This document shows positions 5,232 to 44,843 of a stretch of 64,000 nucleotides of DNA, one piece after another. The stretch's first letter is position 1. Every line of letters starts with the position of its first letter. The position numbers and the translations under genes are program-made. The stretch comes from Amycolatopsis dendrobii (GTDB taxonomy: Bacteria > Actinomycetota > Actinomycetes > Mycobacteriales > Pseudonocardiaceae), in assembly GCF_014145675.1 (NCBI RefSeq), contig NZ_JACGZW010000023.1:1-64000 (forward strand), written 5' to 3'. The notes beneath the pieces are model-generated. The model did no database searches. It was not told the DNA's origin and saw only the letters and a list, made by a program, of their open reading frames with translations.

Positions 5232-6163
5232 TGTCCGAGATTCCGACGGTGATGCGCGCCGCCGCGATTGACGAGTTCGGGCCCGCGGAACTGCTGACCG
5301 TCCACCAGGTACCGACGCCGGTCGCGGAGCCGGGGCAGGTGCTGGTGCGCGTCGAGGCCGCTGGCGTTCAGCCGACCGACGTCGCGATCCGGGACGGCTG
5401 GACACCGCCGGGCGCGACCGTCGCGTTCCCGCAGATCCTGGGCAACGAGTTCGCCGGCACGATCGTCCAGGTCGGCGCGGGGGTGACCGAATTCGAGACA
5501 GGACAACAGGTTTCCGGGTTCCGGGTGCTCGGCTGCTACGCGGAGTACGTCACCGCGCCGGTCGGCCAGGTGGTCGTCAAACCGGAGAAGGTCGATTGGC
5601 TGACGGCGGGTGCGTTGTCCGCTTCCGGGCAGACTGCGCACACCGCGTTGGAACGGCTCGGTGCCCGGTCCGGCGAGACGATCCTGATTCACGGAGCGGC
5701 TGGCGGCGTCGGCTCGATGGCAGTCCAGCTGGCACGCCACCGCGGCCTGCGCGTGATCGGGACGGGCAGCGCGGGAAACCAGGAATATCTCCGCACGCTA
5801 GGCGCCGTCCCAGTGGTTTACGGCGAAGGAGAACTCGGCCGCCTCCGCGAAGCCGCCCCGAAGGGGATCGACCTTGCTCTCGACACCGCCGGGCACGGGA
5901 ATCTTCGCACTGCGGCGGCGATAGTGGCTGACCGCGGCCGGATCGGGTCCATTGTGGAGCCGCCGCTGGCCGCGGAACTCGGCGGGCAGTGGATCACCAG
6001 CGACCGGTCCGCCCAGCGGCTGCGCGAACTGCTCGATCTGTGCGCGCGGGGAGAACTGCGGGTGACGGTCCGGGCGGAGTACCCGCTCGACGACGCCGCG
6101 AGCGCCCATCGCGACGTCGCCGCCGGACACGGTCGCGGCAAGGTAGTGCTGCGGATCGGCTGA
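5231..6163 (+). CDS. NADP-dependent quinone oxidoreductase (zinc-free MDR family)
   Basis: A 310-residue medium-chain reductase of the QOR type. The N-terminal GroES-like domain carries ILGNEFAGTI, and the Rossmann domain begins with IHGAAGGVGSMAVQLA, a classical AxxGxxG nucleotide-binding loop. The four structural-zinc cysteines of alcohol dehydrogenases are absent, as in quinone reductases. It shares ATGA with the preceding DsbA-like gene, so the two form one transcript, and the SoxR box upstream fits induction by redox-cycling compounds. The likely role is reduction of a quinone or enone; the precise substrate is not readable from sequence. Confidence 0.92.
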   Translation: MSEIPTVMRAAAIDEFGPAELLTVHQVPTPVAEPGQVLVRVEAAGVQPTDVAIRDGWTPPGATVAFPQILGNEFAGTIVQVGAGVTEFETGQQVSGFRVLGCYAEYVTAPVGQVVVKPEKVDWLTAGALSASGQTAHTALERLGARSGETILIHGAAGGVGSMAVQLARHRGLRVIGTGSAGNQEYLRTLGAVPVVYGEGELGRLREAAPKGIDLALDTAGHGNLRTAAAIVADRGRIGSIVEPPLAAELGGQWITSDRSAQRLRELLDLCARGELRVTVRAEYPLDDAASAHRDVAAGHGRGKVVLRIG

Positions 6164-6203
6164 CGTAATTCGGTGGACGCGGGTCGTCGCGTGCCGTTAT
6201 GGT

Positions 6204-6290
6204 TCGCCCGACCGTGACTCGACGCCAGGAGGTGAGACCCATGAACGCTGTTTCGATGTGGGTGCTCCCCGTGTCGTCACGGTCGGGCGA
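6204..6290 (+). promoter_or_regulatory. Long inverted repeat enclosing a leader ORF (possible attenuator)
   Basis: TCGCCCGACCGTGAC at 6204-6218 is exactly complementary to GTCACGGTCGGGCGA at 6276-6290, a 15-bp stem with a 57-nt loop. The loop contains the ribosome-binding site and most of a 17-codon ORF, while the right arm is the end of that ORF. Ribosomes on the leader would therefore disrupt the stem. A smaller hairpin (GCCTT/AAGGC, 6314-6328) follows before the GNAT start. Confidence 0.65.
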
Positions 6291-6294
6291 CTGA
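6241..6294 (+). CDS. 17-residue leader peptide upstream of the GNAT gene
   Basis: ATG at 6241 is preceded by CCAGGAGGTGAG (6225-6236), one of the best Shine-Dalgarno sequences in the window, and encodes MNAVSMWVLPVSSRSGD before TGA. It is too short for a catalytic product. Its 3' half forms one arm of a 15-bp inverted repeat, and it ends 53 bp before the GNAT start, so it is best read as a regulatory leader. No homologue is recognised. Confidence 0.5.
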   Translation: MNAVSMWVLPVSSRSGD

Positions 6295-6347
6295 CGTAGG
6301 GGTTGCCAGGAGCGCCTTGAGCAAAGGCACTCCGAAAGGTGACCACC

Positions 6348-7139
6348 ATGGACACTGTGCGTTTCACCGCGGGCGAACCCGCGGTGCGCATCACCCGGGT
6401 CGAACCCGGGCTCTGGCAGGCGCTGGACGACGGCAGGCTTGCCGGTCGCGCCGAAGCCACCACCCGGCCCGACGGACGGGTCTTCCTCAGCGTCGACGCC
6501 TGGCATCGCTCGGTCTTCGACCAGCTGGCCCGCGAGATGCTGGCCGCACTGCCGGACCCGCTCCACACCGTGGTCGACGAAACCGACCGCGAGCTGCTGG
6601 ACGGCTGGCAACGGGCCGGTCTGACGGTCCGGCGGCGCGAGTGGGAGTACGTCGTGCCCACGGATCCGCGGGTCACCGGGCCGGTCGTGCTGCCGCCGGG
6701 CGTCACGGTCGTGCCCGCCGGATCCGCGGCCGAGGCTCCGTTGCGCGAGCTGGACCGCGTCGTCCGCGCCGAGGTCGAGGCGAGCGTGGGCTGGTCGGAG
6801 ATGCCGGCCGAGGTGCTGCCTCGGCCGGCTGGCGACACCGTCGTAGACCCGGCGAAGTACGCCGTGGCTGTCGAGGACGGCGAGTACGTCGGTCTGCTCC
6901 GGGTGGTTCAGGTGACGCGCCTGCCCCGGATCGGGCTCATCGCCGTCCGCGCGGATCGGCGCCGCCGCGGCATCGCGCGCGGACTGTTGCTGCACACGCT
7001 CGGCGTCCTGCATCGAGCGGGAATCCCGAAGGCGTCAGCCGAAGTGAACGAGGCCAACGACGCCGCGACGGCGCTGTTCGAGGGCATCGGCGCGCGGCGG
7101 GCGAACAGCACGGTGGAGTTGATGCGCCATGGCCGGTAA
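6348..7139 (+). CDS. GNAT-family N-acetyltransferase
   Basis: A 263-residue protein with an uncharacterised N-terminal half and a C-terminal GNAT domain. The acetyl-CoA loop is readable as [14 protein letters not shown], followed by [18 protein letters not shown], typical of motif B. The ATG at 6348 is preferred to the GTG at 6339 because GAAAGG at 6334-6339 is then 8 bp away. It overlaps the downstream IF-1 gene by 11 bp, so the two are translationally coupled. The linkage with an IF-1 paralogue and a leader ORF suggests a ribosome-related substrate or drug, but this is inference. Confidence 0.88.
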
Positions 7140-37983: not shown

Positions 37984-38004
37984 ATATATCGTCTTAGGAT
38001 ATAT
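37984..38004. promoter_or_regulatory. PadR-type palindrome
   Basis: ATATATC-N7-GATATAT, perfect 7-bp arms in otherwise GC-rich DNA, lies 8 bp before a 12-codon ORF and a membrane-protein gene. AT-rich dyads of this kind commonly precede padR-membrane protein operons in actinomycetes. It also provides -10-like sequence. Confidence 0.55.
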
Positions 38005-38011
38005 GTGGACC

Positions 38012-38050
38012 ATGGTGCGAAGCCCCCGCTCAGCGGAAGCGCGAGCATGA
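38012..38050 (+). pseudogene. 12-codon ORF, possibly a padR gene reduced to its two ends
   Basis: ATG at 38012 encodes MVRSPRSAEARA and ends in ATGA overlapping the next gene. The beginning resembles the first residues of PadR regulators and the end has the overlap normal for padR with its membrane partner, while the entire middle is missing. A natural leader ORF is the alternative. Confidence 0.35.
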
Positions 38051-38991
38051 TCGGCGCCGAGGCCCGGTACCGCGCCCTGCTGCGCGTGCTCCCGGCTTGG
38101 TATCGCGCCGATCGAGGCGACGAGATGGTCGGCACGCTGCTTGACCTGCACGGCGAGCAGGACCGCAAGGCGCTGTGGAGCGAACTGTGGGCGGTGCTCG
38201 CGCTGGGCCTGCGTACCCGGCTGGCGGCCAGGGCAGCACCCGCGCGCACGGTCGCCCTCGGCGATCTCGTGCGGCAGGTCGCGCTCCTCGGGCTGCTCTG
38301 GGACGTGCTCAGATCGGCCTGCTTCGCCACCGGCACGCTCTGGACGCTCCTCACGTTCTCCGGCCCCTACCCGGGGAACTTCCGTGCGGCGATGACGTCC
38401 GACTTGATCACGGAGCTCATCCCGCTGGCGGCCGCGCTGATTCCGCTCGTGCTGCTGGTCGACGGATGGCGCCGCCTGGCGCGGATCACCGCCGGGGCGA
38501 TCCTGGCGGTCGGCGCGATCTGGTTTCTGGCCAAGCATTCCGGCCCGGAAGCGATCGCGTACTTCGCTCCGCAGTGGATTCCCCTGGTGCTGTTGCTGGC
38601 GGCCTTCCACCGCGACGCCCCGCTGCCGCCGGCGCGGCCGTGGTGGTGGATCGTCGGGGGAAGCCTGCTCCTCGCTCCCGTCCTCGCGTTCAGGTTCGCG
38701 CTCCCGGGCGATCTCGACCGGATCACCGGGTTGTCGCCGCTCGTCTGGCTGTGCGCGCTCGCCGGAGCCGGATACCTGCTGCTCCGGCTCCGCTCCGCGC
38801 CCCGTCCGGCATGGACGCTAGCGCTGGCCCTGTGCATCGCACTGGCGGTGATCCAGAACCTGGTGCTGAAAAACGGCATCATCCCGTTCGACGCGATAGT
38901 GCTCGCGCAGGTTTGCTGCGCCGGGGCGATTGTCGTGGCATTGACCGTCGTCGGGATTCGCGACTACCGCCGTACCGTCGTGAAGGGCTGA
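38047..38991 (+). CDS. Polytopic membrane protein of a PadR-type pair
   Basis: A 314-residue protein. The N-terminus (RYRALLRVLPAWYRADRGDEMVGTLLDL) is the cytoplasmic helical region found in proteins encoded after PadR regulators in actinomycetes, followed by about eight membrane helices. Function is unknown. The start overlaps the 12-codon ORF (ATGA), so it is translationally coupled to what remains upstream. Confidence 0.8.
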   Translation: MIGAEARYRALLRVLPAWYRADRGDEMVGTLLDLHGEQDRKALWSELWAVLALGLRTRLAARAAPARTVALGDLVRQVALLGLLWDVLRSACFATGTLWTLLTFSGPYPGNFRAAMTSDLITELIPLAAALIPLVLLVDGWRRLARITAGAILAVGAIWFLAKHSGPEAIAYFAPQWIPLVLLLAAFHRDAPLPPARPWWWIVGGSLLLAPVLAFRFALPGDLDRITGLSPLVWLCALAGAGYLLLRLRSAPRPAWTLALALCIALAVIQNLVLKNGIIPFDAIVLAQVCCAGAIVVALTVVGIRDYRRTVVKG

Positions 38992-39215
38992 GCGTTCTCC
39001 TCCAGAAAATGATTCTGGCGCTGTTGGCGTATCCGCGGAAACCATTGCACAAGAGTCTGTCTCTGGGCTCCGCCGACGAGCAGAACCGGAATCCTTCCGG
39101 AGCGCGGGCGGTCACCCCGGCACCGCGATTTTCCTTGCGGGACATCGACCAGATCGACGGGCGGGTTCCGCCGGGGGCGATCGCCTGGACGAGACCGAAC
39201 CTGAGGCGTGAATCG

Positions 39216-40607
39216 TCACGCGCGATCCGGCTTCCCGTCCATCACGATCCCGCGGCCGGTGACCTCGAACGCGGTGGTGTAGGGGAGATTCGTGCTGGCC
39301 CGGGTCTTCAGCACGGTCAGCGCCCGGTCGATGCGCGCCCCGGAGCGCTGGTACTGCAAGAGGATCACGTTGTCGGACAGGTGCGAGATCCCGGTGCCGG
39401 ACAGGCCCGCCTGCCCGTACAGGTCCGGGATCTCCAAGGTGAGCAGCGTGGTGATGCCCACCTGGGCGCAGCGGCCCAGCAGCGAATGCAGGAACTCGCT
39501 GAACCGCTGGTCGTCGTCGCACGCCGCGGCGAGGTCGGTGAGGCTGTCGATGACCAGCCTGCGGGTCCGGCTGGCGGTCAGCGAGTCCAGCAGGTCGTAG
39601 AACCACTGGTCGATGTAGATGTCGTTGGGGGATTCGCAGCGCAGCGTGACGGAGTCGGACCGCGGTTCCCAGCCGAGGCTGCGGACGGCCCGGTTGAGCT
39701 GGAGCGAGTTCTCCTGCAGCGTCGTGAAAGTGCTGTGCTGGCCCAGCTCCACGCCGTGGTAGGCGAAGTGCAGGCCGATGACCGTCTTCCCGGAGCCGGG
39801 CGGCCCGGCCACGATGGTGCTCGAACCGGGCCAGAATCCGCCGCCCAGCATGGCGTCGAGGCCGGGGATGCCCGAACTCGCCCGTGCGGTGGCCGCCGGG
39901 TCGACCGTGCCCTCGCCGACGGCCGGATCGCTGAGCCGGGGGAACGCGTCCAGCCCGTTCTCGGAAATGCGGTAGGTGTGCCAGCCGGGCAGGAAGGTGC
40001 TGCCGCGCAGCTTGAGCACCTGCAGCGCGCGGTTGGTGCGCTGGCCGCTGGCCTGCGTGGACAGCGCGATGGTGGCGTCGGCGATGGTGAACTCGGCCGA
40101 CGACGCGAGTTCGGCGCTGTCGTATTCGGCCAGCCACAGGGTGCTGGTCGCCAGCGCGCTGAGCCGTCCGGCCAATTCGTAGAGGAAGCGCGTGTAGGCG
40201 GCCTGGTCCTGGGAGCCGTAGCGCAGGGCTTTGATGCTGTCCACGACCAGGATGCCGCACCGGGTGCGGGTCGCGATCTCGGTGAGCCGGGCGAGACCGG
40301 CGTTCAGCCCGCCCTCGGTCACCACGTCGCCGAGGTCCTCGAACAGCACCGACGTCCCGATCCGGTCCGGCGCGCAGAACTCGAGGCCGTCCAGGAACTG
40401 GGTGATCTTCGTGAGCGGTTCGGTGAGGGTGCTGAAGTAGACCACCGGGCGGGCGGGGTCGGCGTTGGCGAACGCGTACTGCTGGGCCAGCACGGTCTTG
40501 CCGGACCCGGGAGCTCCCGCCAGCAGGGTGATCGACGGGTCGATCAGCCCGCCGCCCAGTATCGCGTCCAGCCGTTCGCATCCGCTGGCCAATCGCTGTT
40601 TCGTCAC
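39216..40607 (-). CDS. KaiC-like double-RecA ATPase
   Basis: A 463-residue protein with two RecA/KaiC domains. Walker A motifs are GAPGSGKT (residues 31-38) and GPPGSGKT (268-275); Walker B strands are GILVVDSIKAL and RLVIDSLTDL. The second domain ends ISHLSDNVILLQYQ, aligning by eye with the KaiC phosphosite loop: Ser is kept at the S431 position, but the T432 position appears to be His. Cyanobacterial KaiC is a clock ATPase; actinobacterial homologues are signalling ATPases of unknown function. The GTG at 40607 follows GGGAGAG and overlaps the stop of the upstream receiver protein, so it is the third gene of an operon. Confidence 0.88.
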   Translation of the reverse strand: MTKQRLASGCERLDAILGGGLIDPSITLLAGAPGSGKTVLAQQYAFANADPARPVVYFSTLTEPLTKITQFLDGLEFCAPDRIGTSVLFEDLGDVVTEGGLNAGLARLTEIATRTRCGILVVDSIKALRYGSQDQAAYTRFLYELAGRLSALATSTLWLAEYDSAELASSAEFTIADATIALSTQASGQRTNRALQVLKLRGSTFLPGWHTYRISENGLDAFPRLSDPAVGEGTVDPAATARASSGIPGLDAMLGGGFWPGSSTIVAGPPGSGKTVIGLHFAYHGVELGQHSTFTTLQENSLQLNRAVRSLGWEPRSDSVTLRCESPNDIYIDQWFYDLLDSLTASRTRRLVIDSLTDLAAACDDDQRFSEFLHSLLGRCAQVGITTLLTLEIPDLYGQAGLSGTGISHLSDNVILLQYQRSGARIDRALTVLKTRASTNLPYTTAFEVTGRGIVMDGKPDRA

Positions 40608-41662
40608 GCGACTCTCCCGGCCGCGGGGTGCAGATCGCGGACCATGGCCAGCACCTGCGACGGGTGCACCGGTTTGGGCAGCACCCGGGCGGCGGCCGGC
40701 GGACTCTGCCGCACCGCCGACGGCGAAATCACGATCAGCTGGGTGCCCGGTCCCTCGGCGAGGGCCCGGATCAGGTCGCCCGCGCCCGCGGCGGTCTGGT
40801 CGATGATCGCCAGCGGCGGCGGGAGCGAGTTCAGCACCGCAGCCGCGGAAACGGTTGCGGTGACGTCGAATCCGGCGGCGCGCAGCGCGTCCGACAAACA
40901 GCTGACGGTGAAGCGGTCCGGGTCCACCACCAGGATCCGCGTGTCGTGGCCGGGACCGGCGAACTCGTCCGCGCCGCCGTCCGCCGCGTGCTCGGCGCTG
41001 CGCACGAGCGGCTGGGCCAGGTCCCGCGCGTGCGCGCGCAGCATGGCCTCCGCCGAGGGGAGGTCCACGCCGTGGCGGGCGGCGAGCATTCCGGTGGCCT
41101 GCCAGACCTCGATCTGGTCCTGCTGCGCGGTGTGCCGGGTCAGCCGCACGGCGGTGGAGGGCAGATCGTCGGCGACGGCGTCGGCCAGCAGGACCGTCGC
41201 GGCGATCCCGGCGCAGCCTCGCACGACGGCGATCTCGTCGGCGGACAGCGTCCGGTGCGCGCGGCTGACCAGCACGACGGTGCCGACGAGCGCGTCGAAC
41301 GCCTCCATCGGGACTGTCTGCACCGCGGTGATGCCGTGCTCGACGGCGAGCCGCGCCAGTCCCGGCCGCTGGGCGGCCTGACCGACGAGGTCGGCGTAAC
41401 CGGTCGCTTCCCCGGGCGTCGCGCACACGTCCTCGTCAGCGCGGAAAGCGAGGAAATCGTCGGCCAGCGGCCAGTCTGTCCCGGCGAGGGCGACGCCGCG
41501 GCCGCGGTCGTCAGGCAGCAGCACGATCGCCGCGTCCACGCCGGGCAAGCGCGTGCAGACGCGGGTGAGCAGATACGCGGCGTCGAGTCCGGTCCGCCGG
41601 CCGGTCACCGCCCGAGCCGTCTCCAGCAGCAGCGAAGCCCACTCGCCGTTCAGCGTGTTCAT
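40604..41662 (-). CDS. GAF-ANTAR protein with C-terminal receiver domain
   Basis: A 352-residue signalling protein. The N-terminal half is a GAF domain (LARLAVEHGITAVQTVPMEAFDALVGTVVLVSR). The middle carries an ANTAR RNA-binding domain (QIEVWQATGMLAARHGVDLPSAEAMLRAHARDLAQPL). The C-terminus is a response-regulator-like receiver (TRILVVDPDRFTVSCLSDAL; LAIIDQT with the candidate phospho-Asp; RVLPKPVHPSQVLAMV with the conserved Lys-Pro). The order GAF-ANTAR-REC is the reverse of the usual REC-ANTAR. The ATG at 41662 overlaps the previous gene's stop, and its own stop overlaps the KaiC-like start. Confidence 0.85.
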   Translation of the reverse strand: MNTLNGEWASLLLETARAVTGRRTGLDAAYLLTRVCTRLPGVDAAIVLLPDDRGRGVALAGTDWPLADDFLAFRADEDVCATPGEATGYADLVGQAAQRPGLARLAVEHGITAVQTVPMEAFDALVGTVVLVSRAHRTLSADEIAVVRGCAGIAATVLLADAVADDLPSTAVRLTRHTAQQDQIEVWQATGMLAARHGVDLPSAEAMLRAHARDLAQPLVRSAEHAADGGADEFAGPGHDTRILVVDPDRFTVSCLSDALRAAGFDVTATVSAAAVLNSLPPPLAIIDQTAAGAGDLIRALAEGPGTQLIVISPSAVRQSPPAAARVLPKPVHPSQVLAMVRDLHPAAGRVA

Positions 41663-42474
41663 TCCGGGTGCCTCCCGCTTTCGCCGCCATGGCTTTCGTC
41701 GCCGCGGTCGTCCGCGTCGTTTTTGTCGCGGTCGTCGTCGTGCTGCCACGACGGATGGTCAGGAGGCAGGCGCAGTACGCCCGCGACCACGTCGTCGGCC
41801 ACTTCGGACAGCCGCCTGCCGCTGACGTACGCGTAGGCCCGCAACCGCAGCGAGGCTTCCGCGACCGGGCAGCCCAGCTGGGCCGCGGCCATTCCCGTGG
41901 CGGAGTGCACGGTGCGCCAGCGGCGGTAGAGCCGCTCGTCGACGATCGCCTCCGCCTCGCCCGACGCCGTGAGGGCCACCCTCGCGAGCAGGTGGCCGGT
42001 CACGACCTGGACCATCGTGAGCGCCAGGTCCAGTTCGCCGTCGGTCAGGGAATGCGGGGACTCGCGGTAGATCTCCAGCACCCCCAGCGACGCCGCCCCG
42101 GTGGCGAGCGGGAACGCGAACACCGCGCGCAGCCCCTCCTCGACCACGGCGGGCGCGAACAGCGGCCACTGCCGGAACCGCCGCGGCTCGTCCAGCTCCG
42201 CGGACAGCACCGCGAACCGGCGCCGCAGCGCCGTCAGCCCGGGACCTTCTCCCACGGTGATCTGGAGTTCTAGCACGCGCTCGGCACGCGGATCGGTGGC
42301 GTAGGCGGGCTCGCCGAGACCGAACCGCTCCTTCAGCCGCACTCCGACGCCGTCGGCCGCCAGCACCTCCTGGCACACCTGGACCACGTGCCGCAGCGCC
42401 ACCGGGGAACCCTCGGCCAGCGCACGGGCCCGGATCGCCTCGTAGATCCTGGCCAGCTCCTGCTCGATCACCAC
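41659..42474 (-). CDS. GAF- and ANTAR-domain protein
   Basis: A 271-residue protein: GAF domain (VQVCQEVLAADGVGVRLKER, EGLRAVFAFPLATGAASLGVLEIYRE) followed by an ANTAR domain (YRRWRTVHSATGMAAAQLGCPVAEASLRLRAYAYVSGRRLSEVADDVV). ANTAR domains bind RNA hairpins and prevent termination. The tail is very acidic and His/Asp-rich. First gene of the three-gene operon, with ATGA overlap to the next gene. The upstream 190 bp are not assigned. Confidence 0.88.
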   Translation of the reverse strand: MVIEQELARIYEAIRARALAEGSPVALRHVVQVCQEVLAADGVGVRLKERFGLGEPAYATDPRAERVLELQITVGEGPGLTALRRRFAVLSAELDEPRRFRQWPLFAPAVVEEGLRAVFAFPLATGAASLGVLEIYRESPHSLTDGELDLALTMVQVVTGHLLARVALTASGEAEAIVDERLYRRWRTVHSATGMAAAQLGCPVAEASLRLRAYAYVSGRRLSEVADDVVAGVLRLPPDHPSWQHDDDRDKNDADDRGDESHGGESGRHPE

Positions 42475-42664
42475 AGTCCGCGCCTCTCCGTCCGGAGGAC
42501 TGCACGAACCGCGACGTTAGAACCGGCCGTCCAACGTGGCCAGAGCAACAAGGCTCTAGTGGCGGAGGATTCCGGCCCTGTGCGCCGTCCGCCGCGCCGG
42601 GCGGACGCGCCGGGCCGCTCGCCGTCCGGCGGCGGCATCGCGCACGGTTTCGCGAGGGTGTTCG

Positions 42665-43240
42665 CTACCGGTTTGCGGGCTGCCTTGCCGCAGCGGGGAA
42701 TTCGCCGCGTTCGACCTGGCCCGCCACGCGCTGCCAGAATTCCAGCGCGGCGTGCTCCATGCCCAGCCCCAGTTCCAGGGTGACCATGCGGTTCGCCACG
42801 TCGTGGACCTCGCCGAAGCGGTCTTTCATGTCCTGGTATTCGGCGATGCGGCGTTCGTGCTGCTCGATTTGGCTCGCTGCCAGGCGTGCGACGTCGGGCA
42901 GTTCGCCCAGTTCGTTGAAGAACAGCTTGATCTCCGCGACGTCTCGCAGTTCGAAATGCTCGTGCACCGGTTCGGCCAGCCAGCCGCGGAGCGCGGCCGA
43001 TCCCTCTTCGGTGATCGTGTACAGCTTGCGCCTGCGTCCGTGCTGTTCCTCGTGCACGTCGAGCAGGCCCGCGTCCTCCAGCCGTTTCGGCTCCGAATAC
43101 AGCTGCGCGTGCGGGAACGTCCAGAAATAGCCGATCGACCGGCCGACCGCGCGCTTGAGGTCGTAGGGGGTCGACGCGCCGCGCAGCGCGATCATGCCCA
43201 GCACGACGTACGAGGTCGTGGACAACCGCACGCTTGACAT
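42665..43240 (-). CDS. PadR-family transcriptional regulator
   Basis: A 191-residue regulator with PadR winged helix (LSTTSYVVLGMIALRGASTPYDLKRAV, FWTFPHAQLYSEPKRLEDAGLLDV) and a C-terminal dimerisation domain rich in helices (Vir_act_alpha_C-like). The ATG at 43240 gives the canonical beginning; upstream in-frame codons cover the operator. It is divergent from the catabolic operon, with tandem TCTGAAACAGA dyads between, so it is expected to repress the operon until the substrate or its CoA ester binds. Confidence 0.9.
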   Translation of the reverse strand: MSSVRLSTTSYVVLGMIALRGASTPYDLKRAVGRSIGYFWTFPHAQLYSEPKRLEDAGLLDVHEEQHGRRRKLYTITEEGSAALRGWLAEPVHEHFELRDVAEIKLFFNELGELPDVARLAASQIEQHERRIAEYQDMKDRFGEVHDVANRMVTLELGLGMEHAALEFWQRVAGQVERGEFPAAARQPANR

Positions 43241-43269
43241 GCCCCGAAGGCTACCGTACGGTCCTGACC

Positions 43270-43296
43270 GTCTGAAACAGATGGTCTGAAACAGAT
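43270..43296. promoter_or_regulatory. Tandem operator for the PadR regulator
   Basis: GTCTGAAACAGAT occurs twice with a 14-bp period (43270-43282 and 43284-43296). Each copy contains the small dyad TCTG-AAA-CAGA. They lie between the divergent padR and ligase starts, just upstream of the operon's first gene. Confidence 0.75.
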
Positions 43297-43340
43297 CATT
43301 GCGGAGATCTTCCGCCCCGGACTGCGGCAACGGAGCACTG

Positions 43341-44843
43341 ATGGACCTGGGCACGGCGATGCGGTGGACGGCCGAGCGCTATCCGTCCCGGCGGGCGGTG
43401 GGCGGCGCGCGTCCGCTCACCTACGCCGAATGGGACGACCGGACGAGCCGGCTGGCGAGGGCGTTCGGCGAACTGGGAGTGCGCGCGGGCGACCGCGTCG
43501 TGCTCGTGCTCGCCGGCGGGCTGCCGCTGGCGAGCGCGCACTTGGCGGTACAGAAGATCGGCGCGGTTTCGGTTCCGCTGTCGTTCCGGTTCGCGGCGCC
43601 GGAGCTCGCGTACTGCGTGGCGGACGCGGAGCCGGCACTGGTGGTTTACGACGAGGAGAACGCCGAGTTGGCGGCCGAGGCGCTGGACGGGGTTGCCGGC
43701 GTTTCCGCCGACGAGCTCGACCACCGCGCCGGACGAGGTGGTCCGGCTCCGCTCGTGCCGGTGCGCGACGACGACATCAGCGTCATGCTCTACACCTCTG
43801 GCACCACGGGGAAACCGAAAGGCGTGCCCCGCAGTCACGCGGCCGAGCATTATTCCGCGCTCGCGCACATCATCCAAACTGGACAGTCCTATTTCGACGC
43901 GACGCTCGGCGTGATGCCGTTGTTCCACACCATGGGCATGCGGACGCTTCTGTCCACAGTGCTCACCGCGGGCACCTGGGTGCCGCAGGTCCGGTTCGAC
44001 GCCGAGGAGACGCTCGAACTCGTCCAGCGCGAGAAAATCTCCAGTCTCTTCCTCGTCCCCACGATCTATTGGTCGCTCCTGCGCACCGGTCGCCTCGGGG
44101 AAGCCGCCTCGGTGCGCAAGATCGGGTACGCGGGAGCGGCGATGACGACCTCGCTGGCCGGACAGCTGCAGGACGCGCTGTCGCCGCAGTCGTTCGTGAA
44201 TCACTACGGCAGCACAGAGATCTACACCTTCTCCATCGGCCCGGACTCGGCGGCCAAACCGGGTTGTGCCGGGCGTGCCGGGGTCTTCTCCCGGGTCCGG
44301 CTGGTGCGGCCGGAGCCGGACGCGAGCCCGCACGACCTGGTCGGACCGGGGGAGCAGGGGCAGATCGCGGTGTCGATGGCGAGCCCGGAGGCGTTCGCCG
44401 GGTACTGGCGCCGTCCCGACGCGGACGCGAAGGCGATCCGCGGCGGCTGGTACTTCCCGGGCGATCTCGCCGTCGCCGACGACGAGGGCGACCTGTGGGT
44501 GTCCGGCCGGATCGACGACATGATCAACTCGGGCGGCGAGAACCTCTACCCCGAGGAGATCGAGAACGCGCTCGCCGCGTGCCCGGCGGTGCGCGAGGTG
44601 GTCGTCACCGGCACCGCGGACGACCGGTGGGGCCAGGCGGTCACCGCGTTCGTGGTGCCGGAGCACGGGATCACGCCGGACGAGGCCGTCGCGGCGGTCG
44701 CCCGGTTCGCCCGCGACGAGTCCGGCCTGCCCTCGCTCAAACGGCCCAAGCGCGTCGTCGCGGTGCCGGAGATCCCGAAGTCCGGCGTGGGCAAGATCCT
44801 GCGCCGCGAACTCGCCGCACCCGATGTGCAGGAGGCGCCGTGA
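43341..44843 (+). CDS. Acyl-CoA synthetase (AMP-dependent ligase)
   Basis: A 500-residue adenylate-forming enzyme that couples an organic acid to CoA. The P-loop is YTSGTTGKPKGV, the A5/A8 motifs are NHYGSTEIY and GRIDDMINSGGENLYPEEIEN, and the catalytic Lys lies in KSGVGKILRRE. It is the first gene of the PadR cluster and overlaps the molybdenum subunit gene by GTGA. In this context it should activate the acid which the hydroxylase then attacks; benzoate- or hydroxybenzoate-like acids fit, but the specificity is not readable. Confidence 0.92.
   Translation: MDLGTAMRWTAERYPSRRAVGGARPLTYAEWDDRTSRLARAFGELGVRAGDRVVLVLAGGLPLASAHLAVQKIGAVSVPLSFRFAAPELAYCVADAEPALVVYDEENAELAAEALDGVAGVSADELDHRAGRGGPAPLVPVRDDDISVMLYTSGTTGKPKGVPRSHAAEHYSALAHIIQTGQSYFDATLGVMPLFHTMGMRTLLSTVLTAGTWVPQVRFDAEETLELVQREKISSLFLVPTIYWSLLRTGRLGEAASVRKIGYAGAAMTTSLAGQLQDALSPQSFVNHYGSTEIYTFSIGPDSAAKPGCAGRAGVFSRVRLVRPEPDASPHDLVGPGEQGQIAVSMASPEAFAGYWRRPDADAKAIRGGWYFPGDLAVADDEGDLWVSGRIDDMINSGGENLYPEEIENALAACPAVREVVVTGTADDRWGQAVTAFVVPEHGITPDEAVAAVARFARDESGLPSLKRPKRVVAVPEIPKSGVGKILRRELAAPDVQEAP

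Follow-up and report, generated by a model that had tools for sequence, protein, structure and literature searches.

A three-gene operon in Amycolatopsis dendrobii as a possible GAF-ANTAR form of an actinobacterial pseudo-receiver and KaiC switch

Results

Organization of the locus

We analyzed a 64,000-nucleotide stretch of the Amycolatopsis dendrobii genome (contig NZ_JACGZW010000023.1, positions 1 to 64,000, here called the window) and focused on three consecutive minus-strand genes in it. They encode a GAF-ANTAR protein (P0001), a GAF-ANTAR-receiver protein (P0002) and a double KaiC-like ATPase (P0003), and each gene overlaps the next by 4 nt. The ATGA and GTGA overlaps support the original prediction, made from the DNA sequence alone, that sensors and ATPase form one translational unit. 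The features of the locus are as follows.

41659..42474, minus strand: P0001, GAF-ANTAR protein, 271 aa, GTG start
42007..42399, minus strand: GAF domain of P0001 (PF01590), residues 26-156
41785..41916, minus strand: ANTAR domain of P0001, Ser at the EutV Tyr164 position
41659..41662, minus strand: ATGA overlap of P0001 and P0002, 4 nt, read from the sequence
40604..41662, minus strand: P0002, GAF-ANTAR-receiver protein, 352 aa, ATG start
40991..41128, minus strand: degenerate ANTAR domain of P0002, Glu at the EutV Tyr164 position
40631..40936, minus strand: predicted pseudo-receiver of P0002, residues 243-344; DD1 Asp, DD2 Pro, D Asp, then Ser and Lys
40604..40607, minus strand: GTGA overlap of P0002 and P0003, 4 nt, read from the sequence
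39216..40607, minus strand: P0003, double KaiC-like ATPase, 463 aa, GTG start
39927..40598 (approximate limits), minus strand: CI domain of P0003
39240..39884 (approximate limits), minus strand: CII domain of P0003; Ser431 equivalent Ser408, Thr432 equivalent His409
42514..42543, minus strand: promoter-like block CTGGCC-18 nt-TAACGT, an outline common to five trio operons in an alignment read by eye

The trio is genuine and beyond chance. The three proteins of a congener (G655, locus L072) are 84, 78 and 93% identical to P0001, P0002 and P0003, and the corresponding Ka/Ks values of 0.40, 0.52 and 0.19 indicate purifying selection on the trio. Both congeners also share a divergent downstream gene (80% identity), so the trio lies at one and the same site in both. 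Just upstream of the trio, on the minus strand, the window holds a gene for a PadR-family regulator (42665-43354); this gene is absent among the genes called adjoining the trio in loci L072, L039, L006 and L007.

The KaiC-like protein and its relatives

P0003 matches PF06745 twice (E 2.7e-60) and has Walker A and B motifs in both domains. The best 50 Foldseek matches of its structural model are all KaiC, including a full-length fold match to cyanobacterial KaiC with an E-value of 3.3e-40, which bears out its earlier description as a two-domain KaiC-like ATPase. It falls below the cut-off of the circadian-KaiC equivalog TIGR02655 (129.7 bits, cut-off 546.25) and of NF006799 (191.3 bits, cut-off 408). 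A defense role for P0003 was discarded: PADLOC gave only four short P-loop matches, the best to mad8 (7.2e-10, residues 24-52), and no matches for P0001 and P0002.

To describe the chemistry of the family we aligned 44 KaiC proteins, excluding that of locus L136 because it is broken. The Walker residues K, T and D of CI are invariant (44/44), as are K and T of the CII Walker motif, and 43 proteins retain the Asp of CII Walker B. The glutamate pairs have changed. KaiC E318 is the general base. The second Glu of CI and the Lys/Arg of both domains are invariant and the second Glu of CII is kept in 41 of the 44 proteins, but the first Glu of the CI pair is never Glu (0/44), and its CII counterpart is Gln in 38 proteins and Glu in four (three Kutzneria-genus KaiCs and L055). 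The equivalent of Ser431 is Ser in 42 proteins, and that of Thr432 is never Thr (0/44) and is Ser in one. For P0003 this agrees with the earlier observation that the phospho-loop Ser is kept and the neighboring Thr has become His (Ser408 and His409). P0003 has 27 residues after the CII Arg, within a range of 22-48 across the alignment; KaiC of S. elongatus has about 60. The full KaiA-binding tail is thus lacking.

The original prediction also found no kaiA or kaiB nearby. This extends to the whole genome, where no KaiA match was found at E 0.01. The KaiB profile gave a single match just below its cut-off (26.6 bits versus 27) at C57, and this candidate was rejected because it carries WCGPC and reads as a thioredoxin.

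A receiver is the constant partner of KaiC

Relatives of P0003 are rare at every level that we surveyed. With the window genome counted, they occur in 11 of 200 genomes (E 1e-80) and 17 of 390 genomes (E 1e-60) of the family, 14 of 396 of the phylum (E 1e-60), 10 of 394 of the class (E 1e-50) and 2 of 80 of the genus (E 1e-60); eight named genomes were matched. After merging duplicate records (G126 with L006, G142 with L007, L131 with L008 and L132 with L009) we had 45 distinct kaiC loci including the window, 41 from a first survey and four found later. One subset of 18 KaiC rows was hand-picked from the 41 loci and is mostly plus-strand.

A receiver is encoded within 400 nt before kaiC at 37 of the 41 loci, and only eight other receiver matches were found in the 613 kb covered. 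The four later loci also have a receiver before kaiC, intact in L133-L135 and in two frames in L136. In the last case (genome G102) the split receiver lies beside half a kaiC gene, possibly reflecting a frameshift in a draft assembly. The four receiver-less loci (L077-L080) form a single KaiC clade with 100/100 support. By eye, two of these four lie near Hsp20- and MerR-like genes, and the other two have phosphatase-like and response-regulator genes downstream on the opposite strand.

What precedes the receiver varies. Among the 37 loci the N-terminal companion is MerR in 11, HATPase_c_2 in nine, GAF-ANTAR in five, HisKA-HATPase in two and HATPase-MerR in one, and the receiver stands alone in nine. 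Pfam matches to all five GAF-ANTAR proteins and to one or two members of every other class underlie these assignments, with sequence likeness used for the remainder. At loci L040, L041 and L055 MerR precedes the receiver. Seven of the nine HATPase loci have a STAS gene after kaiC, L010 and L012 being without it, as judged with a profile built from three of the genes that it finds (L008, L011 and L013, confirmed by Pfam). This would be an output of the sigma-regulator type. STAS-like genes were also seen by eye at L047, L048 and L049, on the opposite strand and 0.9-1.7 kb before the kaiC gene of MerR-receiver/KaiC pairs.

The original prediction took the two ANTAR proteins to define the unit, which does not hold across loci, since the ANTAR pair accompanies only five of the 45 kaiC loci and the receiver is the constant partner. 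A survey of gene neighborhoods finds the receiver-KaiC pairing near-constant, and the intact trio in only five genomes: the window genome, the congener G655 (L072), and three Kutzneria-genus genomes, namely G109 (L039) and those of L006 and L007. Orthologues of P0001 in the four other genomes are 47-84% identical. The wider unit is thus KaiC plus a receiver with swapped N-terminal companions.

We asked how far the two partners have diverged together. Distances among the KaiCs and among their receivers are correlated (r 0.86, with none of 5000 permutations as high), and r is 0.84 for the ingroup alone. For pairs of different architectures the correlation is 0.65 (528 pairs), and 0.48 for the 354 such pairs inside the ingroup. 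In both trees the GAF-ANTAR set and the outgroup set each hold together. The receiver tree unites the HATPase forms in a single clade; the KaiC tree, with the long branch of L046, leaves this open. Conversely, the GAF-ANTAR-receiver and HATPase-receiver forms are sisters (100/100) in the KaiC tree only, and the receiver tree leaves this open.

The receiver of P0002 is a predicted pseudo-receiver

Pfam finds no receiver in P0002, even with E-values up to 10. The receiver profile of the locus survey had been iterated on the proteins that it then finds, so we trained a profile on 23 receivers of other architectures, with no GAF-ANTAR or HATPase-receiver proteins among them, as a separate test. 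This profile matches P0002 with a whole-protein E-value of 1.3e-9 (36.2 bits, Z=5000), the best stretch being residues 243-344. The AlphaFold model of P0002 has a receiver fold at residues 242-344, in which the ten-residue blocks have pLDDT values of 81-95 save one of 76, and it lacks a helix between strands 4 and 5. The top 50 Foldseek matches of the P0002 model are GAF/phytochrome-type proteins only. Among the related loci, PF00072 is over its cut-off in L042, L048, L054, L058 and L060 and weak (E 0.0027-0.025) in L008, L012, L039 and L007; it gives no receiver match in L006, L072 or the window.

The active site has changed in a consistent way. In the order DD1-DD2-D-T-K, the window and L072 read D-P-D-S-K, the three Kutzneria-genus receivers E-A-D-S-R and the nine HATPase forms D-G-D-S-K. 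The MerR forms read E-R-D-S-K in five of 11 cases and E-R-E-S-K in two, and four of the receiver-only forms read E-R-D-S-K. At L048, L050, L053 and L054 the phospho-Asp position is Glu, possibly a built-in mimic of phosphorylation. DD2 is non-acidic in all 31 ingroup receivers, window included, and acidic in all six of the outgroup. A passage of PMC12632262 defines a pseudo-receiver as a receiver without one or more key active-site residues. Since they lack the second Mg-binding acid (DD2), the 31 ingroup receivers are all pseudo-receivers under that definition.

By their residues, then, both partners seem to have drifted from phosphoryl chemistry, with the ATPase motifs still in place. The earlier idea that phosphorylation is the signal fits poorly with a receiver without DD2 and a KaiC without Thr432 and without the first Glu of the pair.

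The ANTAR domains are degenerate

Both ANTAR domains are marginal matches. With hmmscan, P0001 has a GAF match over its cut-off (1.1e-6) and an ANTAR match below it (9.7e-6, 25.7 bits, cut-off 27.3); in P0002 both ANTAR (1.1e-5, 25.6 bits, cut-off 27.3) and GAF (0.0026, 18.7 bits, cut-off 22.4) are below. A six-frame search of the genome with PF03861 scored the two window ANTARs at 28.7 and 28.3 (cut-off 27.3), ranks 11 and 12 of 13. The ANTAR part of P0002 is modeled by AlphaFold with low confidence (pLDDT blocks 33-63).

In EutV, according to passages of PMC8934654, the RNA is contacted by Tyr164, Arg168, Asn173, Arg175 and Arg177, and Tyr164 stacks on the conserved G4 of the RNA hexaloop. 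We compared these five positions in an ungapped hand alignment. On that alignment Ser (P0001) and Glu (P0002) stand in place of Tyr164. The Arg of position 168 is retained in both proteins, and that of 177 in P0001 only. Among the 10 trio ANTARs just one has an aromatic residue at the Tyr164 position, as against all four solved ANTARs (Tyr, Trp, Phe and Phe) and nine of the 10 other genomic ANTARs that we read, of 11 matches (Phe in all nine).

The operon itself also appears a poor candidate for an ANTAR target. With the conserved block at 42514-42543 taken as the promoter, the leader would measure about 33 nt, and the operon is then unlikely to be its own target because a dual hairpin plus terminator seems too long to fit. 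The block is not a consensus sigma-70 site, and a sigma-70 site scan gave no match. The terminator scan found one terminator-like site, on the plus strand, with 1.2 expected. Rfam gave nothing at gathering threshold in window positions 38000-44000; no genome-wide search for ANTAR target RNAs was made.

The ANTAR of P0002 is probably a dimerization part, and that of P0001 is possibly an RNA binder. RNA antitermination, the output originally proposed, is therefore possible for P0001 and doubtful for P0002, because both window ANTARs lack the loop-stacking aromatic of EutV: the ANTAR-type matches are present in both proteins, but the Tyr164 position is Ser or Glu and the operon's own leader is apparently too short.

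Loci without KaiC

In genus g8 we fetched eight loci (L123-L130), picked since their receivers matched P0002. All eight have the order HATPase-receiver, STAS and a gene that, from likeness, we take to be AroH-like, with no KaiC match. In another genome of this genus (G193, L046) the slot holds a shortened kaiC of 422 aa in which Glu replaces the CII Walker B Asp. A TPR-like gene, seen by eye, is also in the conserved block of L123-L130 and L046. Because the receiver protein and STAS stand there without KaiC, the output pair of g8 seems able to lose KaiC, its apparent regulator.

Among 297 genomes of the family (E 1e-12, seven candidates scored per genome), full-length matches to P0002 were found only beside KaiC (G000, G109, G126 and G142). 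Only partial copies remain in genome G019 (L122, Kutzneria genus g19), covering residues 65-241 of P0001 and 95-304 of P0002, and no kaiC was found in the 15 kb around them. From this one case, the ANTAR pair may go when KaiC goes. Many of 30 matching genomes do have plain GAF-ANTAR proteins without a receiver and away from KaiC. For instance, G121 (L137, about 5579-6874) has a tandem GAF-ANTAR pair whose first gene is frame-broken; neither a receiver nor KaiC appears before the contig ends, about 0.8 kb later. Because the G121 pair stands alone, P0001 and P0002 may descend from a plain tandem GAF-ANTAR pair that gained a receiver.

Relatives of P0003 are also found on plasmids. There are 46 such records, all <60% identical and mainly from Proteobacteria; the best 20 of the 46 are 30-34% identical. 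A mobile origin was considered, and the distribution of KaiC may reflect either gain or multiple losses.

Discussion

A proposed KaiC-based switch and its alternatives

As the most likely of several readings, we tentatively take the operon as the GAF-ANTAR form of an actinobacterial module of pseudo-receiver and KaiC, in which the KaiC ATPase controls the pseudo-receiver protein by its nucleotide state. The basis of this reading is the gene order, the overlaps, the near-constant pair, the swapped companions, the correlated divergence, the loss patterns and, in both partners, the missing phospho-chemistry residues. We infer the binding, the direction and the RNA output. One nucleotide state of P0003 would hold the P0002 pseudo-receiver and the other would release it. 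Whether the P0001/P0002 pair is free would depend on ATP turnover, with possible tuning by ligands of the GAF domains, and not on phosphoryl transfer, and the output would act on RNA through the ANTAR region, most likely that of P0001. Several observations weigh against this reading. Four KaiC loci have no receiver. The window receiver retains the equivalents of Asp57, Ser and Lys, loss of DD2 alone is no proof that a receiver cannot be phosphorylated, and the six outgroup receivers are canonical. Three Kutzneria-genus KaiCs and L055 retain the CII Glu-Glu, and in one KaiC the Thr432 equivalent is Ser. Shared species history raises the correlation of distances, which is down to 0.48 for different architectures inside the ingroup. 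Finally, with both ANTARs degenerate, the RNA output is uncertain.

Control could also run in the reverse direction, with the GAF/pseudo-receiver proteins as KaiA-like inputs that set the KaiC ATPase and KaiC as the effector. We consider this unlikely. GAF domains are commonly sensors, and P0003 is the most conserved of the trio between the congeners (93% versus 78-84%, Ka/Ks 0.19). In cyanobacteria, passages of PMC12632262 note, KaiA and CikA carry pseudo-receivers too, a likeness to the KaiABC system. Elsewhere, however, the companions are domains of the output type (MerR, or HATPase with STAS), and in g8 the HATPase-receiver/STAS pair does without KaiC at all eight fetched loci. A conventional phosphorelay, from an unlinked histidine kinase to the P0002 receiver and on to ANTAR with KaiC as modulator, is distinctly unlikely in our view. 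It would suit the retained D, Ser and Lys, the canonical outgroup receivers, two of which are fused to their own HisKA-HATPase, and the proteobacterial plasmids. We inspected six of the 46 plasmid records; in the five annotated regions, a response regulator directly follows the KaiC-like gene in three, lies two genes on in one, after an HWE kinase, and is lacking in one. Less easily squared with a phosphorelay are the Pro at DD2 in the window, the Ala at that position together with the change of Lys to Arg in the three Kutzneria-genus proteins, an operon with no kinase, and a receiver model with no helix 4.

It strikes us as improbable that the operon serves RNA antitermination alone, through an ANTAR dimer of P0001 and P0002, with KaiC only co-expressed. 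Both proteins have ANTAR-type matches, tandem GAF-ANTAR pairs without KaiC exist (G121), and ANTAR target RNAs are described across actinobacteria in passages of PMC8164766, but the aromatic residue at the Tyr164 position is nearly gone from the trio ANTARs and, where KaiC is absent in G019, both ANTAR genes are only partial. A timing oscillator has almost nothing in its favor beyond the KaiC fold and the Ser431 equivalent of 42 of the 44 proteins. KaiA, KaiB, Thr432 and the full tail (27 residues after the CII Arg in P0003) are all missing, and on these grounds we ruled out the operon as a clock.

Relation to known systems

Compared with cyanobacterial KaiC, P0003 shares the double RecA/KaiC architecture, the Walker sites, the second Glu of the pairs, the Lys/Arg and Ser431. 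It differs in its low identity (about 23% by Foldseek), in the absence of Thr432, the replaced first Glu of the pairs and the short C-terminus, and its family has ANTAR, MerR or HATPase proteins as partners in place of KaiA and KaiB. A KaiC-like ATPase tied to a receiver has precedents, in the proteobacterial plasmids and in the KaiC-receiver fusions of Methanosarcinaceae; passages of PMC5847659 treat these fusions and a 'signal hub' proposal. On the plasmids the response regulator comes after KaiC (four regions), whereas in Actinomycetota the receiver precedes it, is mostly a pseudo-receiver and changes its N-terminal domains.

The ANTAR proteins resemble EutV, NasR and Rv1626 in joining ANTAR-type helices to signal domains, but in the window the RNA-contact positions are degenerate, the P0002 receiver follows the ANTAR, and KaiC is in the operon. 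A likeness to RsbW/STAS partner switching is confined to the sister form (HATPase_c_2-receiver, KaiC and STAS), as the window trio has neither HATPase nor STAS. Among the open-licence papers listed, the titles, abstracts and passages gave no account of this module of KaiC with a pseudo-receiver or with ANTAR-domain proteins. Links of KaiC with two-component parts are already known, and the pseudo-receiver module is a new variant of them and not a clock.

It is conceivable, if rather doubtful, that the reading applies more widely, as a phosphorylation-free switch in which one ATPase core and a pseudo-receiver bearing RNA-binding (ANTAR), DNA-binding (MerR) or anti-sigma (HATPase/STAS) heads recur across Actinomycetota, the outputs being exchangeable. 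The data suggest that the version with the GAF-ANTAR pair is a rare form of the module, with proteins of an RNA-binding type. A pseudo-receiver partner that is near-constant, diverges together with KaiC and has exchangeable outputs offers a testable answer, in this actinobacterial group, to the question of what KaiC-like ATPases outside cyanobacteria talk to. If the switch is true, it would link the KaiC fold to control at the level of RNA, DNA and sigma factors, and it would bear on how bacterial pseudo-receivers switch, which the abstract of PMC12632262 calls a mystery.

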